Origin: Thermoleophilia bacterium
Lineage (GTDB): Bacteria > Actinomycetota > Thermoleophilia > BMS3ABIN01
Reading direction: 5' to 3'
DNA length: 55,015 nucleotides
Assembly: GCA_014874175.1 (NCBI GenBank)
Contig: JACWAD010000024.1
Span: 1 to 55,015, forward strand
The position numbers and the translations under genes are program-made. Position 1 is the stretch's first letter. Each line of letters begins with the position of its first letter. Of the stretch, positions 29,746 to 53,477 are shown in pieces. The notes under the pieces are model-generated. The model worked only from the letters and a program-made list of their open reading frames with translations, ran no database searches and was not told the DNA's origin.

Positions 29746-30966
29746 ATGTCAACATTTGCCTACAAAGTCCGGGACGTCAGGGGCGTGCTTTACCGGGGAG
29801 AGCTGGAGGCGGACTCCCGCGCCGCCGTGGCTACCAGCCTGCGCGGCCAGGGCCTCACAGTAGTCGAGGTGAGCGAAAAGAAGAAGAGCGGCGCTTCCCT
29901 GAGCGAAGTCCTCAGGGATCTGCGTCCGATAAAGGCGCGGCATATCACCATTTTCTCGCGGCAGTTCGCCACCATGATCAGCTCCGGGCTGGCGCTGCTG
30001 CGGGCGCTTTATATCCTGGAAAACCAGACCCAGAACCCCAAACTGAAGACAATCATCGGCGACGTCAAGAAAGACGTGGAAGGCGGCGCCGCCCTGTCCG
30101 ACTCCATGGAAAAACACCCGCAGGTGTTCGGCCGGCTTTACGTCAGCATGGTGCGGGCCGGAGAGGCCGGCGGCGTCCTGGACGAGACACTTAACCGGGT
30201 GGCTTCACAGCTGGAGTCGGAGGACAACCTGAAACGGACGATCAAGTCGGCGATGGTCTATCCGCTCCTGATCGCGTCTTTCGCCCTTCTTGTCCTGACG
30301 GCGATGGTCCTCTTCATCATTCCTGTCTTTGCCAAAATGTACGATCAGCTGGGCGGGCAGCTGCCGCTGCTTACCCGCCTGATGGTCTGGGTCAGCAACA
30401 CGATGACCAGCATTGGAGGCTTGTTTATTCTGATCGCCCTGGGCGGGGCAGTCTACGGACTGATCAGGCTGAAGAAGACGCCCCAGGGAACGGCCGCCTG
30501 GGACCGGATGAAGCTGCGCCTGCCGATGGGAATTGGCGAGATCGCCCGCAAACTGGCGATGGCCAGGTTCTCGCGCACGCTGGGCACGCTGATCTCAAGT
30601 GGCGTACCCATCCTGCAGGCAGTCGAGATTACCGGCGACACGGCTGGCAACGTAGTTGTTTCAGAGGCAATGGCCGGCGTCAGGGAAAGCATCAAGCAGG
30701 GCCGGCCCATGTCTGAACCGCTCGCAAGCAAGAGCGTATTTCCGCCCATGGTGACGCAGATGATCGCCGTGGGCGAGGAGACCGGCGCCATCGACACCAT
30801 GCTGGGCAAGATTGCAGACTTCTATGAAGAAGAGGTAAATGCCGCTGTCAAGGCGCTAACGTCAATCCTGGAGCCGATCATGATGATCGGCGTGGGCGCC
30901 ATTGTGGGCGTGATCGTCATCTCGCTTTACCTGCCGATATTTGATCTGATGAACATTGTTCACTAG
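29746..30966 (+). CDS. pilC: Type IV pilus inner-membrane platform protein PilC
   Basis: The 406-residue protein holds two GspF/PilC cytoplasmic domains. Features include FSRQFATMISSGLALLRAL at the start of the first, LASFALLVLTAMVLFIIPVFAKMY-type helices near 170-195, and FSRTLGTLISSGVPILQAVE at the start of the second. Three membrane helices are visible. It couples the PilB and PilT motors to pilin polymerisation. The gene ends 21 bases before the sigma-factor start. Confidence 0.95.
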   Translation: MSTFAYKVRDVRGVLYRGELEADSRAAVATSLRGQGLTVVEVSEKKKSGASLSEVLRDLRPIKARHITIFSRQFATMISSGLALLRALYILENQTQNPKLKTIIGDVKKDVEGGAALSDSMEKHPQVFGRLYVSMVRAGEAGGVLDETLNRVASQLESEDNLKRTIKSAMVYPLLIASFALLVLTAMVLFIIPVFAKMYDQLGGQLPLLTRLMVWVSNTMTSIGGLFILIALGGAVYGLIRLKKTPQGTAAWDRMKLRLPMGIGEIARKLAMARFSRTLGTLISSGVPILQAVEITGDTAGNVVVSEAMAGVRESIKQGRPMSEPLASKSVFPPMVTQMIAVGEETGAIDTMLGKIADFYEEEVNAAVKALTSILEPIMMIGVGAIVGVIVISLYLPIFDLMNIVH

Positions 30967-30987
30967 CAAGGGCCGCCGAAAGCGGGT

Positions 30988-31884
30988 GTGCTGGTCATGG
31001 GCGCGGCATTAAAAAAAGAAGACGAGATAACCAAGGCGCCGCGGCGCGGCGCCCGGGTGATCGAGTTTCCGCTTGGGGGCACGCAGGATGCAAAGCATCC
31101 TGCGTGCCCCCGGGCCTGCAAGTTCCCGCAGCCGGCGAGTGAAAGCCGCCGCAACACGGAGCTGGTCAGCGAGTACCGGAAAAGCAGGGAGCCGGGCCTG
31201 CTGGAGCTGATCGTGAGGCGTAACCAGGGCCTGCTGCACGCTGTGCTGGCGCGCTTTTCCTACTTTCCCGATCCTTACGAGGATCTGCTCCAGGTTGCGA
31301 ACCTGGGTCTGATCAAGGCGGTGCAGCGCTTCGACCCCGGCCGGGGAACGGAATTCTCCAGCTACGCCACCGCCGTCATCGACGGCGAGGTGCGCCATTA
31401 CCTGCGTGACAACGTGCTCATGCGCCAGCCGCGCTGGCTGAGGAAGCTGGAAAAACAGATCGAGGCCGCCTCGGCGGAGTTAACCAGAAAGCTGAAACGG
31501 CCACCAACATTGAAAGAGATCTCACGCGCGGTCAACATCACTGAAGAGGGCGTCATCGAGGTGCTGAGAACAAGCGCCGCGGCGCGGCTGCATCCGGTTG
31601 ACGATCTGCCTGATGGCGCCGGTAGGCACGACCCCGACGCGGGCCGGGTTCACTCGCTTCGTTACGAGTCTTTTTCGCTTCCTGTGGAGGACCGCATCCT
31701 GCTGGAGCAGGCGCTGGACGCATTGGGAGTCTTTCACCACAAGATCATCTTTCTGCTTTTCTACCGCGGTCTGACACAGACTGAGGCGGCTGCCGAGATG
31801 GGGCTGTCGCAGCGGCAGGTATCGCGCGAATCAGCCAGGGCGCTGGACCGGTTGAGGGCTATTCTGAATACGAAGATCTTTTAA
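30988..31884 (+). CDS. RNA polymerase sigma factor, SigF/SigB/SigG-like
   Basis: The 298-residue protein has region 2 (about 65-140) with PYEDLLQVANLGLIKAVQRFDP and EFSSYATAVIDGEVRHYLRD, region 3 (about 150-195) with RPPTLKEISRAVNITEEGVIEVLR, and region 4 (about 235-295) with LTQTEAAAEMGLSQRQVSRESARAL. This is the sporulation/stress sigma class of Gram-positives. It sits directly between pilC and the pilin locus, so control of pilin genes is plausible but unproven. The N-terminal 60 residues are unusual: a 17-base perfect inverted repeat lies inside the coding sequence at codons about 30-42, and no in-frame start exists after it. Start is GTG at 30988 or ATG at 30997. Confidence 0.88.
   Translation: MLVMGAALKKEDEITKAPRRGARVIEFPLGGTQDAKHPACPRACKFPQPASESRRNTELVSEYRKSREPGLLELIVRRNQGLLHAVLARFSYFPDPYEDLLQVANLGLIKAVQRFDPGRGTEFSSYATAVIDGEVRHYLRDNVLMRQPRWLRKLEKQIEAASAELTRKLKRPPTLKEISRAVNITEEGVIEVLRTSAAARLHPVDDLPDGAGRHDPDAGRVHSLRYESFSLPVEDRILLEQALDALGVFHHKIIFLLFYRGLTQTEAAAEMGLSQRQVSRESARALDRLRAILNTKIF
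31075..31111. repeat. 17-base perfect inverted repeat within the sigma-factor gene
   Basis: Arms GGGGGCACGCAGGATGC and GCATCCTGCGTGCCCCC with a 3-base loop AAA. It resembles the GC-rich hairpins at 42285-42312 and 17376-17404. In the mRNA it would form a very stable stem 87 bases after the start codon. Confidence 0.9.
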
Positions 31885-42333: not shown

Positions 42334-44067
42334 ATGAACAAATCACGCCTGCACAGCCAGAAGAGCAGGTGGGGCCCGGAAGTCGATCCGCTCAGGATCG
42401 GCTGCGGCTGGAAGCCGGAGGAGCTGGACAGGCCGTGGCTGCTGGTGGAATCAAGCGGCGGGGATTCCCACCCCGGCAGCGTGCATCTGGCCGGCCTGGC
42501 CGATGCCGCCGCCGGCGCAGCCCGGCGGTCGGGACTGGCGGCGGGGCGCTACTTTTGCACCGACATGTGCGACGGCATTGCCCAGGGAACTGAAGCCATG
42601 ATGTACTCGCTGGCCTCGCGGGAGTTGATCGCCATGGCGGTGGAGCTTCACTTCGTCAGCGGGCATTTCGATGGCCTGCTGGCAGTCTCTGGTTGCGACA
42701 AGGCCATTCCCGGGCATCTGCTGGCCGCAGCGCGGCTGGACAGCCCTTCGGTCTTCCTGCCCGGTGGGGTGATGCATACCGGGCCGGGTGATGTCTCCGT
42801 TGACATGATGGGCGAACTGTATGCACGCCTGAAGCGCGGCGAGATCGACGAGCAGCAGTACAAGTACCACAGTTTAACTGCCGCACCAAACGCGGGCGCC
42901 TGCAATTTCCTTGGCACCGCCGTCACCATGCAGATCCTGACTGAGGCGCTGGGAATGGCGCCGCCCGGCTCGGCCTGCTGCCCAACAACTTCCGCCGAGC
43001 TGGACAGATACGCCCGTGCTGCCGGGCGCCTGGCCGCCTCTTTGATCGGGGCGGGCACCACACCCCGGGACATCATTACGCCGGCTGCGCTTGGCAACGC
43101 CCTTGTGGTTCATGCCTCCGCCGGCGGCTCAACCAACGCCATGCTGCATCTGCCGGCGCTGGCGGCTGAACTGGGGATAGAGTTTTCCTGGGACGCGGTC
43201 AACCGGATTAATGAGAAAGTGCCGTGGCTGCTTAACGTGAGGCCATCCGGTGAGCATACCGCGGACCTGTTCTGGTATGCCGGCGGCGTGCCGCGTCTGA
43301 TGCTCGAGATCAGCGACCTTCTGGATTTGGATGTATTGACCGTCACCGGCAGGACTCTGGGAGAAAATCTGGAAACTGCCGCCGCCGGGGAAATGATTGA
43401 GAAGCACAGCCGCGGGCTTGACCGCTTTGGCCTTGACGCGGAAGACGTAATCAGGCGGCGCAGCGATCCACTCGACGGGCGAGGCGGGCTCGTGGTCATG
43501 TCCGGCAACCTGGCGCCGCGGCGGGCCGTGGCCAAGCGCTCCGCCGTTTCTGCAAAGATGATGCGGTTCGAGGGCCGGGCGCGGGTTTTTGACGGACAGG
43601 CGCAGGCGCTGGAAGCGGTTCTGGCCGGCGCCGTCAGGCCTGGCGATGTTGTCGTTGTCCGTTATGAGGGACCGCGCGCCACCGGAATGCCGGAGATGTT
43701 CTACCTGACTGCCGCCCTGGCCGCCGATAGGGCGCTGGGGGAAGGCGCAGCCCTGGTTACGGACGGGCGCTTCTCCGGAGCCACTCGGGGGCCCTGTGTC
43801 GGCCATGTCTGCCCGGAAGCAGCGGCAGGCGGCCCCGTTGCCGCCGTGCGCGACGGCGATCTGGTCAGGATCGACCTTGACGCCGGCACGCTTGACCTGA
43901 TGGGCGAGGCGGGCACGCGCCGCTCAGGCGCTGAAATGGAGGCTGTAATCGCCGAGCGTCTTTCCCTGCTGGAGCCGTTCAGGCCGCCGCCGCGCGCGGG
44001 CCTGCTGGAACTGTACACCCGCCTGGCCGCGCCCGCTAATGAAGGAGCCCGCCTACTGCTTCTCTGA
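42334..44067 (+). CDS. IlvD/Edd-family dehydratase, Edd-like
   Basis: The 577-residue protein shows the IlvD/Edd motifs MCDGIAQG (residues 78-85), SGCDKAIPG (Cys121), GACNFLGTA (Cys190), ASAGGSTN and DGRFSGATRGPCVGHVCPEA. These enzymes use an Fe-S cluster to dehydrate sugar acids or dihydroxy acids. IlvD proper carries a first cluster Cys in PCNxH; here the aligned segment reads PGSVHL, so that Cys is absent. The MCDGxxQG and SGCDKxxPG words resemble 6-phosphogluconate dehydratase (Edd). No Entner-Doudoroff aldolase or branched-chain gene is adjacent. I call it a sugar-acid dehydratase of unknown substrate; a role in isoleucine/valine synthesis is less likely. Confidence 0.85.
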   Translation: MNKSRLHSQKSRWGPEVDPLRIGCGWKPEELDRPWLLVESSGGDSHPGSVHLAGLADAAAGAARRSGLAAGRYFCTDMCDGIAQGTEAMMYSLASRELIAMAVELHFVSGHFDGLLAVSGCDKAIPGHLLAAARLDSPSVFLPGGVMHTGPGDVSVDMMGELYARLKRGEIDEQQYKYHSLTAAPNAGACNFLGTAVTMQILTEALGMAPPGSACCPTTSAELDRYARAAGRLAASLIGAGTTPRDIITPAALGNALVVHASAGGSTNAMLHLPALAAELGIEFSWDAVNRINEKVPWLLNVRPSGEHTADLFWYAGGVPRLMLEISDLLDLDVLTVTGRTLGENLETAAAGEMIEKHSRGLDRFGLDAEDVIRRRSDPLDGRGGLVVMSGNLAPRRAVAKRSAVSAKMMRFEGRARVFDGQAQALEAVLAGAVRPGDVVVVRYEGPRATGMPEMFYLTAALAADRALGEGAALVTDGRFSGATRGPCVGHVCPEAAAGGPVAAVRDGDLVRIDLDAGTLDLMGEAGTRRSGAEMEAVIAERLSLLEPFRPPPRAGLLELYTRLAAPANEGARLLLL

Positions 44068-44141
44068 GGCGAAGCTGAAGGATCTCGGGTTAAAACCCGG
44101 ATTCTTCGGCGCCTGAGCCTGCCCCGAGCGAAGCCGACGGG
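44063..44141. repeat. REP-like intergenic palindromic element, copy 6
   Basis: CTGAGGCGAAGCTGAAGGATCTCGGGTT-AAAACCCGGATTCTTCGGCGCC carries the same inner GGGTT/AACCC palindrome and AGATTCTTCG-type arm. It directly follows the dehydratase stop codon. Confidence 0.7.
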
Positions 44142-44155
44142 ACGATTATATTTGT

Positions 44156-44243
44156 TATCCTGAGGCACTCGAAGGGTGCCGATGGATCTGCTTTTAATGG
44201 GAAGCAGATTCTTCGCCGCGTTTGCCCGGCTCGGAATGGTAAC
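44156..44243. repeat. REP-like intergenic palindromic element, copy 7
   Basis: Starts TTATCCTGAGGCACTCGAAG, has inner GGATCTGCTTTTAATGGGAAGCAGATTCTTCG, and ends CGGCTCGGAATGG. It lies in tandem with copy 6. Confidence 0.7.
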
Positions 44244-44326
44244 TTCCCTCATCATCTTCGCTACTCTGTTGCTGTGCCCGGTTCTTGCCGACAGCTAAAT
44301 TAGCAGGAGGTTTTCATTTTTTTATC

Positions 44327-46804
44327 ATGGCCAACTTGGTTAACACGCGTGAACTGACCCGGAAATGGCTGCTGCGGACGCCGGCGCTCGTCCGGGCCAG
44401 GCTTGGCATCACAAAAAAAAGAAAAGTCAAAAAGCCGTCTGCCGGAACCGGGCTCAGGTACCGGATCAAGTTTCAGATTCGCACCCGCCAGAAGAGCGGC
44501 ATCGTTGTCAGGGACCTGGTCATCGTCTTTATCATTTTTGCCGTGATGCTGGTGCTGACCTCGGTGCTGGACATGCACGGCTCTTTTGAGGCAGCTTCGC
44601 TTGAGCTCAAAGGCAGCCCCGTTCAATATGACGAAATCATTGTGGCGCTGGCGGTGACTGCGGCCGCCTTGAGCGCGTTTGCGGTGAGGCGCTGGCGTGA
44701 GCTGGAGACAGAGATAGACGAGCGTCTTGGCGTCGAAGACGCCCTTTCCGAGAGCGAGGAGCGCTACCGCACCCTGGCGGAGGCTGACCAGGACTTTATT
44801 TTCATTCTCGGCCGTGACGGACACATCCGCTATGTAAACAGTTACGCCGCCCGCCAGCTGGAGATGCCGCCCGCAAGGATCGTGGGCCAGCCGGCAGAAG
44901 AGATCCTCCCCGCCGGACTGGCAGGCAAGGACAGGCTTGACCTGATGCACGTCTTTGATGAAGCGCAGCCGCTGCGCCTGGAGACGAGCGCCGTCTTCGA
45001 CGGCCGCGAGGCCTGGCTGAGCACAGCCCTTGTTCCCGTTTTTAATGAGGAGGGGAAAGTCGGCTCAGTGCTTGGAATTGCACGCGATATTACCGAGCGC
45101 AAGCTGGCGGAAGACGAGCTCAGGCGGGCGCATGACATCCTGGAAGAAACGGTTGCCCAGCGGACCGCCGAGCTCGAGAGGGTTAACGAAACGCTGAAGA
45201 ACGAGCTTGAGCAGAAAAGGAAGGCGGAGGAAAAGCTCAGGGCTGCAAACAGGGCGCTGAGAGCATCGACCGCCTCGCATCATGCGCTCCTTGATGCTGT
45301 TGCTGAACCGGAGCTGCTTCGCGATATCTGCCGCGTGGTCGTGGAAGTTGGCGGTTACCGTTTTGCCTGGGTTGGCTTTGCTGAAAATGACGCGGAAAAA
45401 ACCATCAGGCCGGTGGCTTCGGCAGGCTACGAAAAAGGGTTTCTGGAATCGGTCCGCATGAGCTGGGCTGATGCCTCACCCGGACAGGGCCCCGGAGGAG
45501 AAGCGATCAGGACCGGCGAGCCCAGTGTTGTCAGGGACATAGACCAGGATCGGGGCTATTTTTCCTGGCGTCGGCAGGCGCGCCGGCGGAGCTACGCCTC
45601 CACGGTGGCGTTGCCGCTTAAGGCAAACGGTGAGACGTTTGGAGTACTAAACATTTACGCCGCCCAGAAAGACGCATTTGATGATGAGGAAGTAAAGTTA
45701 CTGGGGGATATGGCCGGCGACCTTTCCTACGGGCTGGGCGCTCTTAAGACCAAAGGGGAAAGAGATAACCAGGCGGTGGCGTTAAAGCGCAGCGGCGAGC
45801 AGCTGTCGCTGCTTCTGGAATCGCTGCCAATCATTTTCTATAAGTCAAAAGCCGACTCTGATTTTGGCGTCCAGTATGTAAGCGACAATGTCCGTGTCCT
45901 GGCCGGTTATACGCCGGATCAGATTGTGGCGGATTCTTCTTTCTGGGTCGACCGGATTCATCCTGACGACGCGCCCCGCATTTTTGAGGATCAGGGAGAG
46001 GTTTTTGACGGCGGCCTGCATGAACATGAATACCGCTGGCGGACGGCCGGCGGCGCATATAAATAGTTTCTTGATGTTCACCGTCTGCTGCGCAGGCCTG
46101 GCGGCAGCGGGGGCGACCACATCGTTGGCATGTGGCTGGACATCACCTCCCGGAAAACAGGGGAAGCGGCTTTGCTAAAGGTCAAGGAAGAGCTGGAACA
46201 GGGCGCAGCCAGCCGCGATCAGGAGTTAAAGGAGGCGCGGCAGAAACTGGCCGAGCGCAAACGCGAGCTTGACAAAGCCAGGCGCCGCGAGGACGTATCA
46301 GGCCGGATGGAACATGTTCTGCAAAGTTGCCTGAAACCCTCCGAGGTTCTCGCAGTTTTTACCCAGTTTGCAGCGGAGCTGTTCCCGGAGCAGTCCGGAG
46401 CCGTCTATATCTTTAATGTCGGCAAACGGGTGTATGAGTCTGCGGCATTCTGGGGGAGAAACCCGCCCGCGGCAAGGAAATTTGCCTGGCAGGACTGCTG
46501 GTCGCTCAGGCGGCAGCAGATGCACGTGGCGGCCGGTGAGGCGGTGCGCTGCCGCCATGTGCGGGAGAAAACGCGCCACATCTGCGTTCCTTTGAAAGCA
46601 GCCGGCCTTGTAATCGGCGTGCTGAGCGTTCTTGTCCCCGCCGTGCCGGGCTGTGCGTCTGCAGGCAAAGACGCTGTTTCTGACGCCGCCGCCACGGCTG
46701 GGGAAGCAGCAGACCGCCTGAGCATGGCCCTCTATAACCTGAAACTGCGCGAGCTCCTGAAAGATAACTCCTTAAAAGACCCTTTCAGCGCCGATCTCAA
46801 ATAG
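44327..46804 (+). pseudogene. PAS/GAF sensor gene interrupted by an in-frame amber codon
   Basis: The frame encodes two membrane helices (about 63-84 and 100-122), a PAS domain (about 140-255), coiled coil (about 255-320), GAF domain (about 325-465), a second PAS (about 480-610), another coiled coil and a second GAF (about 660-790). Codon 580 at 46064-46066 is TAG in GGAYK*FLDVHRL; the aligned residue is normally Trp (YxWFLDV), one base from TGG to TAG. Reading resumes in the same frame, so it is a point nonsense and not a frameshift. The C-terminus ends LKDPFSADLK where a GGDEF domain (RDPLTGL...) would start in relatives. The start ATG at 44327 has AGGAGG 16 bases upstream, which is too far. 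Other genes here end normally in TAG, so recoding is unlikely. Confidence 0.85.
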
Positions 46805-46831: not shown

Positions 46832-48031
46832 TCAGGCCAGCTCGGGGTCGCCGCTTATAAATTTTTGCATCAGCTCCCAGCCGTGCTCCAACATCAGGCC
46901 CCAGCGCGCGGCGCTATGTTCATTAAAGGCCTGACCGGCATTGCCGGGAAGGCCCGGCCTGTAAATCAGGAAGGGCACGGGATCAGCCGTATGGGTGCCG
47001 GCGTCGACCGGCGTGGCATGATCGGGCAGCACCATGATCCGGTAATCGGGCCCAAATGGCATCTCCTGAAGGAGCGTGCCCACCAGATCGCGGTCAAAGC
47101 GCTCGATCGCCCGCACTTTCTCCCTGGTGTTGCCCATATGCGCCGCCTCGTCGGGGGCTTCCACGTGCACGTAAACGAAATCCCGCCGTTCCAGGGCCAT
47201 CAGGGCATGGACGGCCTTTGCCCGGTAGTCCGTGTCCAGATAACCGGTGGCTCCCGGCACGCTGATGACATCAAGGCCGGCGTATTTGCCCAGCCCCTTG
47301 ACCAGATCAACCGCGGAGATCACGGAGCCGCTGAGCCCAAAGCGCTCCTTGAAAGCAGGAAGGCGGGGGGCCGTTCCCTGCCCCCAGAGCCAGACCATGT
47401 TGGCGGGGGCCCTTCCCTGGCGAAGCCGCTCCCGGTTGACCGGATGGTCTTCAAGCAGGGGCGCCGACGCCTGCATCAGCTGTCTCAGCCAGGCGCCATC
47501 CTCGCCGCCGGGCAGGTGATCAGCTATGGGCCTGCCGGTAATGTCGTGCGGAGGCGTGCACTCTGCTTTAAGGCCACGCCCGGGGGAGACCATGATGTGT
47601 CTGTAGCTTAAGCCGGGGAAGAAAGATGCGTCTTCGCTGCCGATCTGCTCCTGCAGAAACCTGATCAGGACGGCTGCTTCCTCCGTGCCGATGTGGCCGG
47701 CGGCGAAATCGCGCATCACCCCGTTTTCAACATAAACAAGGTTGCATCGGAAGGCGACGTCAGCTGGGCCGAGGCTGATGTCCAGGCTTGCCGCTTCAAG
47801 GGGGGCCCGGCCTGTGTAATAAAGGTGAGGGTTATAACCGAGGACGCAGAGGTTGGCAACATCGCTGCCGGGAGAAAATCCCGCCGGGATGGTGCTCACC
47901 GTTCCCAGAACGCCGGCTCGGGCCAGGCGGTCCAGATTGGCTGTGGCCGCCCCTTCCAGGGGCGTTTTGCCGCCCAGCTCCGGGCAGGAATTGTCGGCCG
48001 CTCCGTCAGGGATGAGCACGAGGTATTTCAT
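46832..48031 (-). CDS. ApgM-family enzyme, probable homoserine kinase (threonine operon)
   Basis: The 399-residue protein is an archaeal-type phosphoglycerate mutase (ApgM) family member: LIPDGAADN and PLEGAATANLDRLA at the N-terminus, SPGSDVANLCVLGY with the phosphorylated Ser, and VLPDHATPVDAGTHTADPVPF at the C-terminus. A subgroup of this family is proposed to act as homoserine kinase because it lies in threonine operons lacking thrB. Here it is downstream of hom and thrC on the same strand with no other kinase gene, and a canonical gpmI is present at 23740. I infer phosphorylation of homoserine; only assay or genetics would prove it. Confidence 0.9.
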   Translation of the reverse strand: MKYLVLIPDGAADNSCPELGGKTPLEGAATANLDRLARAGVLGTVSTIPAGFSPGSDVANLCVLGYNPHLYYTGRAPLEAASLDISLGPADVAFRCNLVYVENGVMRDFAAGHIGTEEAAVLIRFLQEQIGSEDASFFPGLSYRHIMVSPGRGLKAECTPPHDITGRPIADHLPGGEDGAWLRQLMQASAPLLEDHPVNRERLRQGRAPANMVWLWGQGTAPRLPAFKERFGLSGSVISAVDLVKGLGKYAGLDVISVPGATGYLDTDYRAKAVHALMALERRDFVYVHVEAPDEAAHMGNTREKVRAIERFDRDLVGTLLQEMPFGPDYRIMVLPDHATPVDAGTHTADPVPFLIYRPGLPGNAGQAFNEHSAARWGLMLEHGWELMQKFISGDPELA

Positions 48032-51865: not shown

Positions 51866-52082
51866 ATTGGGTTTCATCGAACATTAAACTGCTTCAACTT
51901 CGGCTGCCGATCCCCTTTAATTTAGTAACTATCTCAAATGTCATTCTGCTGCAACCGGCTGCAAAGGCCATGGGCGGCGTTCGAACTGCGCCTGACCGCC
52001 GGCCTCCCTGATATGACCGGGTCAAGGCCTTAAGAAAATTTCTCCAAAAACGATAATTAGATATATTTGTTTGGGGGCGGAT

Positions 52083-53477
52083 ATGTCTGTTTTTAACCAG
52101 CTCAGGAGCCGGAGCCTGCTTTACGGGACTGGCGGAGCTATTCTGGGTTTTGCTTACGCCTTTTTTGCCGTCGGGCTTGATAGAGCACTGGGCACAGGCT
52201 CCAGCCTGCACCTGCTGCTGGCGCCTGTGCTGCTGGGCGTGCTGGCGCTTGTAATCGGCAGGGAACAGGACCGGATCCGCTACCAGGCGAGAGGACTGGA
52301 TGACGCCAGACAGCGTTTTTCTTCCCTTACCCATGACGCCATCACCGAGCGCGACTGGGACGTCAGCTTCTATGACCCGCAGATCCCCACCTGCTGGCAG
52401 GTCAAGCACTGCCAGCAGACCGATTGCCCTTCGTACGGCAAGCAGCACATCCGCTGCTGGCTGCTGGCCGGCACTTTCTGCCGTGGGGAGGTGCAGGGCC
52501 ACTTTGCCCAGAAACTTGGCAACTGTGCCAAATGCGATGTTTACCAGGAGGCGGTGGGACGGGATCCGATTAACGAGATCGGTGAGAACTTCAACGGCCT
52601 CATGTGGGCGCTGAGGGAAAAGGAGGACCTGCTCACGGGTGCAAACAGCGAACTGCAGGCACAGTATGCTTCGCTGGAGCGACTGCAAAAGCAGACGAGG
52701 GAGCTTGCCGACACAGACATGCTCACCGGTCTTAGAAACCACCGCCACTTCCAGCAGCATCTGAAGGGCCAGGTGATCCTGGCAAGGCAGCAGGAAGCGC
52801 CGCTGTCACTGATGATGCTTGACCTGGATTTCTTCAAGTCTGTCAATGACAAGTTTGGCCACCAGAAAGGCGACGCCGTCCTCAGCCGCCTGGAAGGCGC
52901 CAGCCTGCAGACCATCCGCGCCCTGGCCGAGGCAGTCGACACCAGTGACCAGTATTCCGACAAATATGCCCTTCGCATGAACGGCATGGCCGCAAAGATT
53001 GCAGGCAGGCTGGGCCTGGATTCCAAACAGGCAGACGCCCTGGCGCTGGCCGCAAAGCTTCATGATGTGGGCAAGCTGGGCGTTCCCGGCTCGGTTTTGA
53101 GAAAGAAGGAAAAACTGTCGCCCAGCGAACTTTCGCTGGTAAAGCGCCACCCCGAGATAGGCCGGCGGATGCTGCAGGAGATTGAGCAGATCCAGGAACT
53201 TGTCGCGGCAATTCTTTACCATCACGAGCGCTGGGACGGCAACGGCTATCCCGAGCGCCTTAAAGGAGAGCAGATCCCGCTGATGGCGCGCATCGTCGGC
53301 ATCATGGACGCCTACCGGGCCATGCTCAGCGACCGCCCCTACCGCAAGGCGCTCACACCACAGGAGGCAAATGCCGAGCTGAGGAAAGGGGCCGGCACGC
53401 AGTTCGACCCGCACCTGGTGGAGATGTTCATTGAGCTTGCCGGTGAGCCGGATCAGGAGTTGAAACAGGCAGTTTAA
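52083..53477 (+). CDS. HD-GYP domain protein with two-CW motif and gutted GGDEF domain
   Basis: The 464-residue protein has two membrane helices (about 13-33, 42-59), a Cys-rich two-CW domain (about 103-154; TCWQVKHCQQTDCPSYG, CWLLAG, CAKCDVY), a coiled coil, and then the first half of a GGDEF domain (DTDMLTGLRNHRHF, MMLDLDFFKSVNDKFGHQKGDAVL, 211-267) that stops before the GGDEF loop and passes directly into the HD-GYP linker. HD-GYP follows (about 280-455) with HDVGK at 327-331, HHERWDGNGYP at 380-390 and MDAYRAML. It should hydrolyse c-di-GMP. The usual His of GHS is Tyr295 (DKYALRM), so the metal site may be weakened. The ATG at 52083 has GGGGGCGG upstream. Confidence 0.85.
   Translation: MSVFNQLRSRSLLYGTGGAILGFAYAFFAVGLDRALGTGSSLHLLLAPVLLGVLALVIGREQDRIRYQARGLDDARQRFSSLTHDAITERDWDVSFYDPQIPTCWQVKHCQQTDCPSYGKQHIRCWLLAGTFCRGEVQGHFAQKLGNCAKCDVYQEAVGRDPINEIGENFNGLMWALREKEDLLTGANSELQAQYASLERLQKQTRELADTDMLTGLRNHRHFQQHLKGQVILARQQEAPLSLMMLDLDFFKSVNDKFGHQKGDAVLSRLEGASLQTIRALAEAVDTSDQYSDKYALRMNGMAAKIAGRLGLDSKQADALALAAKLHDVGKLGVPGSVLRKKEKLSPSELSLVKRHPEIGRRMLQEIEQIQELVAAILYHHERWDGNGYPERLKGEQIPLMARIVGIMDAYRAMLSDRPYRKALTPQEANAELRKGAGTQFDPHLVEMFIELAGEPDQELKQAV

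Follow-up and report, generated by a model that had tools for sequence, protein, structure and literature searches.

Nonsense pseudogenes of bacterial PAS/GAF sensors carry a single in-frame stop in one genome, while the orthologues of the relatives are all intact, and they occur together with a normal translation termination machinery. Relaxed selection and decay after the stop are expected of old pseudogenes, but are not required of recent ones. GAF-GGDEF diguanylate cyclases, such as WP_012694795.1 of Deinococcus deserti, combine a GAF domain bearing a CWxLRR...CxH...CVP motif with a linker that leads into the GGDEF domain, whereas pyrrolysine recoding allows an in-frame UAG inside a conserved gene to be decoded and involves PylS and an amber tRNA. 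The sensor gene described here lies in a window of 55,015 nucleotides (the whole stretch of DNA that was analysed, corresponding to contig C73) from a metagenome-like draft genome of 1.78 Mb in 107 contigs, with an estimated completeness of 95.7%, whose closest relatives are MAGs. It did not differ in kind from the nonsense pseudogenes, its stop apparently being young and no further decay being seen. It shared the motif-bearing second GAF domain and the linker with the diguanylate cyclases, but the sensor family stops at the first GGDEF residues and lacks the catalytic domain. No publication on this sensor family was found in the literature.

The features of the locus are the following (coordinates within the window).

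42334..44067, + strand: gene of the ilvD-type dihydroxy-acid dehydratase family, conserved upstream neighbour (Pfam, locus comparison)
44327..46804, + strand: interrupted sensor gene, with two transmembrane segments, PAS, GAF, PAS, coiled coil and GAF in this order and without output domain
44513..44686, + strand: two predicted transmembrane segments, residues ~63-81 and ~103-120, with a short loop between them (hydrophobicity; low-confidence helices in the orthologue model)
44780..45103, + strand: first PAS domain (PAS_4, residues 152-259; Pfam, E 2.1e-21)
45305..45727, + strand: first GAF domain (GAF_2, residues 327-467; Pfam, E 1.1e-23)
45875..46144, + strand: second PAS domain (PAS_3), interrupted by the TAG at strand 4 of 5 (Pfam match 517-578; orthologue model)
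46064..46066, + strand: in-frame amber codon TAG replacing an invariant Trp codon, TGG (orthologue alignment)
46145..46327, + strand: coiled-coil linker (residues 607-667) downstream of the TAG (long helix in the orthologue model)
46337..46762, + strand: second GAF domain, of the type preceding GGDEF in diguanylate cyclases, downstream of the TAG (GAF_3 in orthologues; matches annotated diguanylate cyclases)
46733..46804, + strand: linker and first residues of the missing GGDEF domain, followed by the natural stop TAG (D. deserti alignment; same end in 12 orthologues)
46832..48031, - strand: convergent gene for an apgM-type phosphoglycerate mutase / proposed homoserine kinase (Pfam, locus comparison)

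The sensor gene comprised 825 residues plus the stop, with the internal TAG counted as one residue. Counting from the ATG at 44327, this TAG (46064-46066) is codon 580, preceded by 579 codons, and the frame remained open beyond it for 245 codons up to the next stop, a TAG at 46802-46804, in agreement with a preliminary description of this DNA. The Trp codon expected there at position 580 was indeed found in the relatives: in a search of 60 genomes, including the source genome itself, 12 members of the same family had full-length orthologues with 53–79% identity, and all of them carried TGG at this codon, within a strand reading W-F-L-D-(V/I), and had no internal stop (12/12). The lesion, a plain G-to-A transition inside the second PAS domain (TGG to TAG), was thus unique among 13 genomes. 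Both halves of the window gene matched one continuous orthologue protein, exactly one codon apart and without any frameshift (tblastn, with ten loci re-checked), so the downstream frame is not one that is open by chance. Since no full-length orthologue departs from TGG or has an internal stop, the sensor is, on the evidence of the alignments, a single gene bearing one TGG-to-TAG change specific to this lineage.

Gene order around the sensor, GDE - rSAM - ilvD - sensor - apgM - thrC - hom, was kept across much of the family, as judged where the locus was long enough, with a few members missing. The intergenic region upstream of the sensor (44068-44290) contained hairpin-rich dispersed repeats with 16 other partial matches in the source genome. 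The gap of roughly 75 bases in the sister genome G002 lacked them; a role as terminators, or in setting the sensor apart from ilvD, is possible.

With regard to the C-terminal end of the protein, the final residues NLKLRELLKDNSLKDPFS aligned to NLRLRESLRQQSIRDPLT, the GGDEF start of the D. deserti diguanylate cyclase. The alignment passes this linker into a GGDEF domain carrying GGEEF, whereas the window protein stops after NLKLRELLKDNSLKDPFSADLK; the observation that the protein ends exactly at the GGDEF border was therefore confirmed, and no GGDEF domain with an active-site motif was present up to that border. The same held for the family, as the ends of all 12 orthologues coincided to within a few dozen residues and a GGDEF match was found in none of the 10 family members scanned. 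Because the orthologues all end alike, in a conserved gene order, the absence of GGDEF is, from these comparisons, an ancestral and family-wide trait; the diversification of the family came after the loss of the domain, unless it had never been joined at all. A recent loss was considered and ruled out on the same grounds; moreover, 27 bases separate the natural stop of the sensor from the end of the convergent apgM in the window, which leaves no room for a GGDEF remnant.

The domain content upstream of the TAG was that of a PAS/GAF membrane sensor, with PAS and GAF domains above the curated cut-offs: Pfam matched PAS_4, GAF_2 and PAS_3, the last of these cut short at its C-terminal end. Downstream of the TAG, the window's own sequence gave no significant Pfam match. 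In an intact orthologue, Pfam recognised PAS, GAF, a PAS extending past the stop position (515-588) and a second GAF domain at 672-797, the latter with the motif DCWSLRRQQ..H...RCRH...CVPL in the sensor; PAS and GAF families were matched in all 10 family members scanned. The structure model of the orthologue was of moderate quality (mean pLDDT 69.5, pTM 0.32), and for this reason local strand assignments alone were used. The second PAS domain was modelled with strands at 502-508, 514-518, 564-572, 578-589 and 597-605, which places Trp580 in the fourth, and low-confidence helices covered the transmembrane region (44-97 and 102-154). In terms of this model, a stop after residue 579 would cost the second PAS domain its strands 4 and 5, and the protein everything beyond. 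A PDB sequence search with the last 245 residues returned no useful match, and the matches of a fold search were all generic PAS/GAF phytochrome ones of low TM-score.

The open frame behind the TAG might be taken to mean that two functional genes now exist, namely a 579-residue receptor and a separate 224-residue coiled-coil-GAF protein starting at the ATG at 46130, as a frame of 224 codons does begin there and selection on it is unchanged. We consider this extremely improbable: neither a ribosome-binding site nor any Shine-Dalgarno-like sequence was present close to this ATG, in every orthologue its Met is an invariant inner position of a PAS strand rather than a start, and the split would fall between strands, cutting the modelled PAS fold.

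Readthrough, an alternative raised in the preliminary description, would have UAG decoded as Trp, Pyl or some other amino acid and would yield a full-length sensor. RF1 (prfA) was full-length, with 493.6 bits against a cut-off of 423; a TAA flagged inside prfA, which would have meant loss of RF1, turned out in the DNA to be the natural stop of the gene. All 38 tRNA genes found in the assembly read sense codons, the tRNA-Trp being an ordinary CCA, and none had the anticodon CUA, although a suppressor tRNA could be missed in a draft of 107 contigs and 95.7% estimated completeness. Profile searches detected no PylS N-terminal domain in the source genome and no PylS C-terminal domain above the cut-off in this genome or in the 18 family members searched, both models giving, within the family, only weak matches typical of other synthetases. 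TAG was the terminal stop of 11 of 28 chosen window genes and is also the natural stop of the sensor itself. Hence, with RF1 intact, PylS and a CUA tRNA lacking and TAG a common stop, termination is the expected outcome at 46064, an expectation based on gene content. This differs from pyrrolysine systems, with which the locus shares the in-frame UAG inside a conserved gene, also in that the residue of the relatives is Trp. Readthrough was consequently not supported by this indirect test. It could draw on the purifying selection that persists on average in the downstream half and on the occurrence of PylS in related genomes; TAG, however, occupies codon 580 in no relative, and together with the decoding repertoire this makes readthrough very unlikely.

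As a separate observation, strong PylS C-terminal matches (279-320 bits; L032-L036 in G035, G025, G020, G030 and G022) were found in 5/40 related genomes; these five belong to the same class as the source genome, but to other families. Pyrrolysine systems thus appear, from these matches, to occur in other families of this actinobacterial group.

In order to place the stop in time, substitutions in the window gene were compared with those in the intact sister species. After the stop, dN/dS was 0.21 for the window against either sister and 0.22 between the sisters, with 28/27 replacement/silent changes specific to the window; the combined counts of the two sisters were 48/47 (Fisher P = 1). Before the stop, dN/dS was 0.13 and 0.11 for the window against the sisters and 0.11 between them, and the corresponding changes were 44/66 and 76/152 (P = 0.27). 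The neutral part of the window's branch was at most about 20%, a rough 95% bound with omega set at 0.2. At three otherwise invariant positions before the stop the window was unique (A to D, I to V, Y to H), and each sister likewise carried three such unique differences. Neither relaxed selection nor further decay after the stop was therefore seen relative to the intact sisters, in dN/dS or in lineage-specific changes. As the post-stop half still evolves like that of intact relatives, the substitution pattern points to a stop that arose recently, that is polymorphic or, with lower probability, that reflects an error in the consensus. The preliminary description had proposed a recent nonsense mutation in an already truncated gene; its first part is supported by TGG in 12/12 orthologues, no second lesion and no sign of relaxed selection after the stop. 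The second part is wrong if it means damage to this particular gene, the GGDEF-less end being common to the whole family.

The lack of decay is consistent with a very recent event, but would also fit an error of the assembly or consensus, or an allele of a minor strain in a metagenome consensus, the main gene being intact. The metagenome-like draft, the MAG status of the nearest relatives and the occurrence of the TAG without accompanying frameshift or second stop are also compatible with such an origin, as is the possibility that another window gene is an assembly chimera. Against it stand the plain G-to-A transition and the surrounding sequence: when open reading frames of two sister contigs were compared with the syntenic 37 kb, the sensor was the sole conserved gene with a stop in its conserved part. 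Other flagged stops in this region were interpreted as falling ahead of start codons, between neighbouring genes or in overlapping frames that are spurious. Since no other conserved gene in ~37 kb shows an internal stop, the assembly does not look error-ridden. We infer that the TAG is a real mutation, and regard an error or minor allele as unlikely, though not negligible.

The possible chimera is a GGDEF-HD-GYP protein of 468 residues (52071-53477, + strand) that appears internally deleted, being short by ~120 residues, including the GGEEF motif, relative to both homologues in the sister G002. One paralogue is resembled by its N-terminal part and the other by its C-terminal part, and the second of these paralogues is intact elsewhere in the source genome (C16). 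Paralogue recombination, an in-frame deletion or an assembly chimera may account for it. Internal stops flagged in other c-di-GMP genes of the source genome (C79, C49) turned out to be natural ends. Elsewhere in the window, two adjoining genes at 29746-31884 (+ strand) share a frame, with a TAG and a few codons between them; this looks like chance, as both frames are separate in the sisters too.

Taken together, the locus is very probably explained by a recent loss-of-function nonsense mutation in a membrane-bound PAS-GAF-PAS-GAF sensor derived from a GAF-GGDEF diguanylate cyclase. The catalytic domain of such an ancestor would have been lost before the family diversified and, in the window's lineage, the invariant Trp codon in the second PAS domain would then have become TAG. 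RF1 would stop translation there, releasing a 579-residue fragment in which the second PAS domain ends before its last two strands and both the coiled coil and the final GAF domain are missing. Because the fragment lacks these parts, the sensor is most likely non-functional and, judging from the model, the fragment would be inactive; the loss of function may still be segregating in the population. A more speculative proposal, which we hold to be doubtful, is that the intact family represents a conserved output-less PAS-GAF-PAS-GAF membrane receptor that pairs via its coiled coils with other signalling proteins, e.g., separate cyclases, and that it has only just disappeared from the window's species or persists there as an on/off amber polymorphism.

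The lesion itself is thus ordinary, probably a recent nonsense mutation in an ancestrally output-less sensor family, and it may serve as a calibration case, in which an in-frame TAG in a well-conserved gene resembles recoding or split-gene novelty and yet is a single-lineage nonsense change. Of more lasting interest is the family: 12 relatives have retained, in a fixed chromosomal place, a diguanylate-cyclase-like sensor that lacks the enzyme domain. Its purifying selection and fixed location suggest that such output-less sensors serve some purpose.
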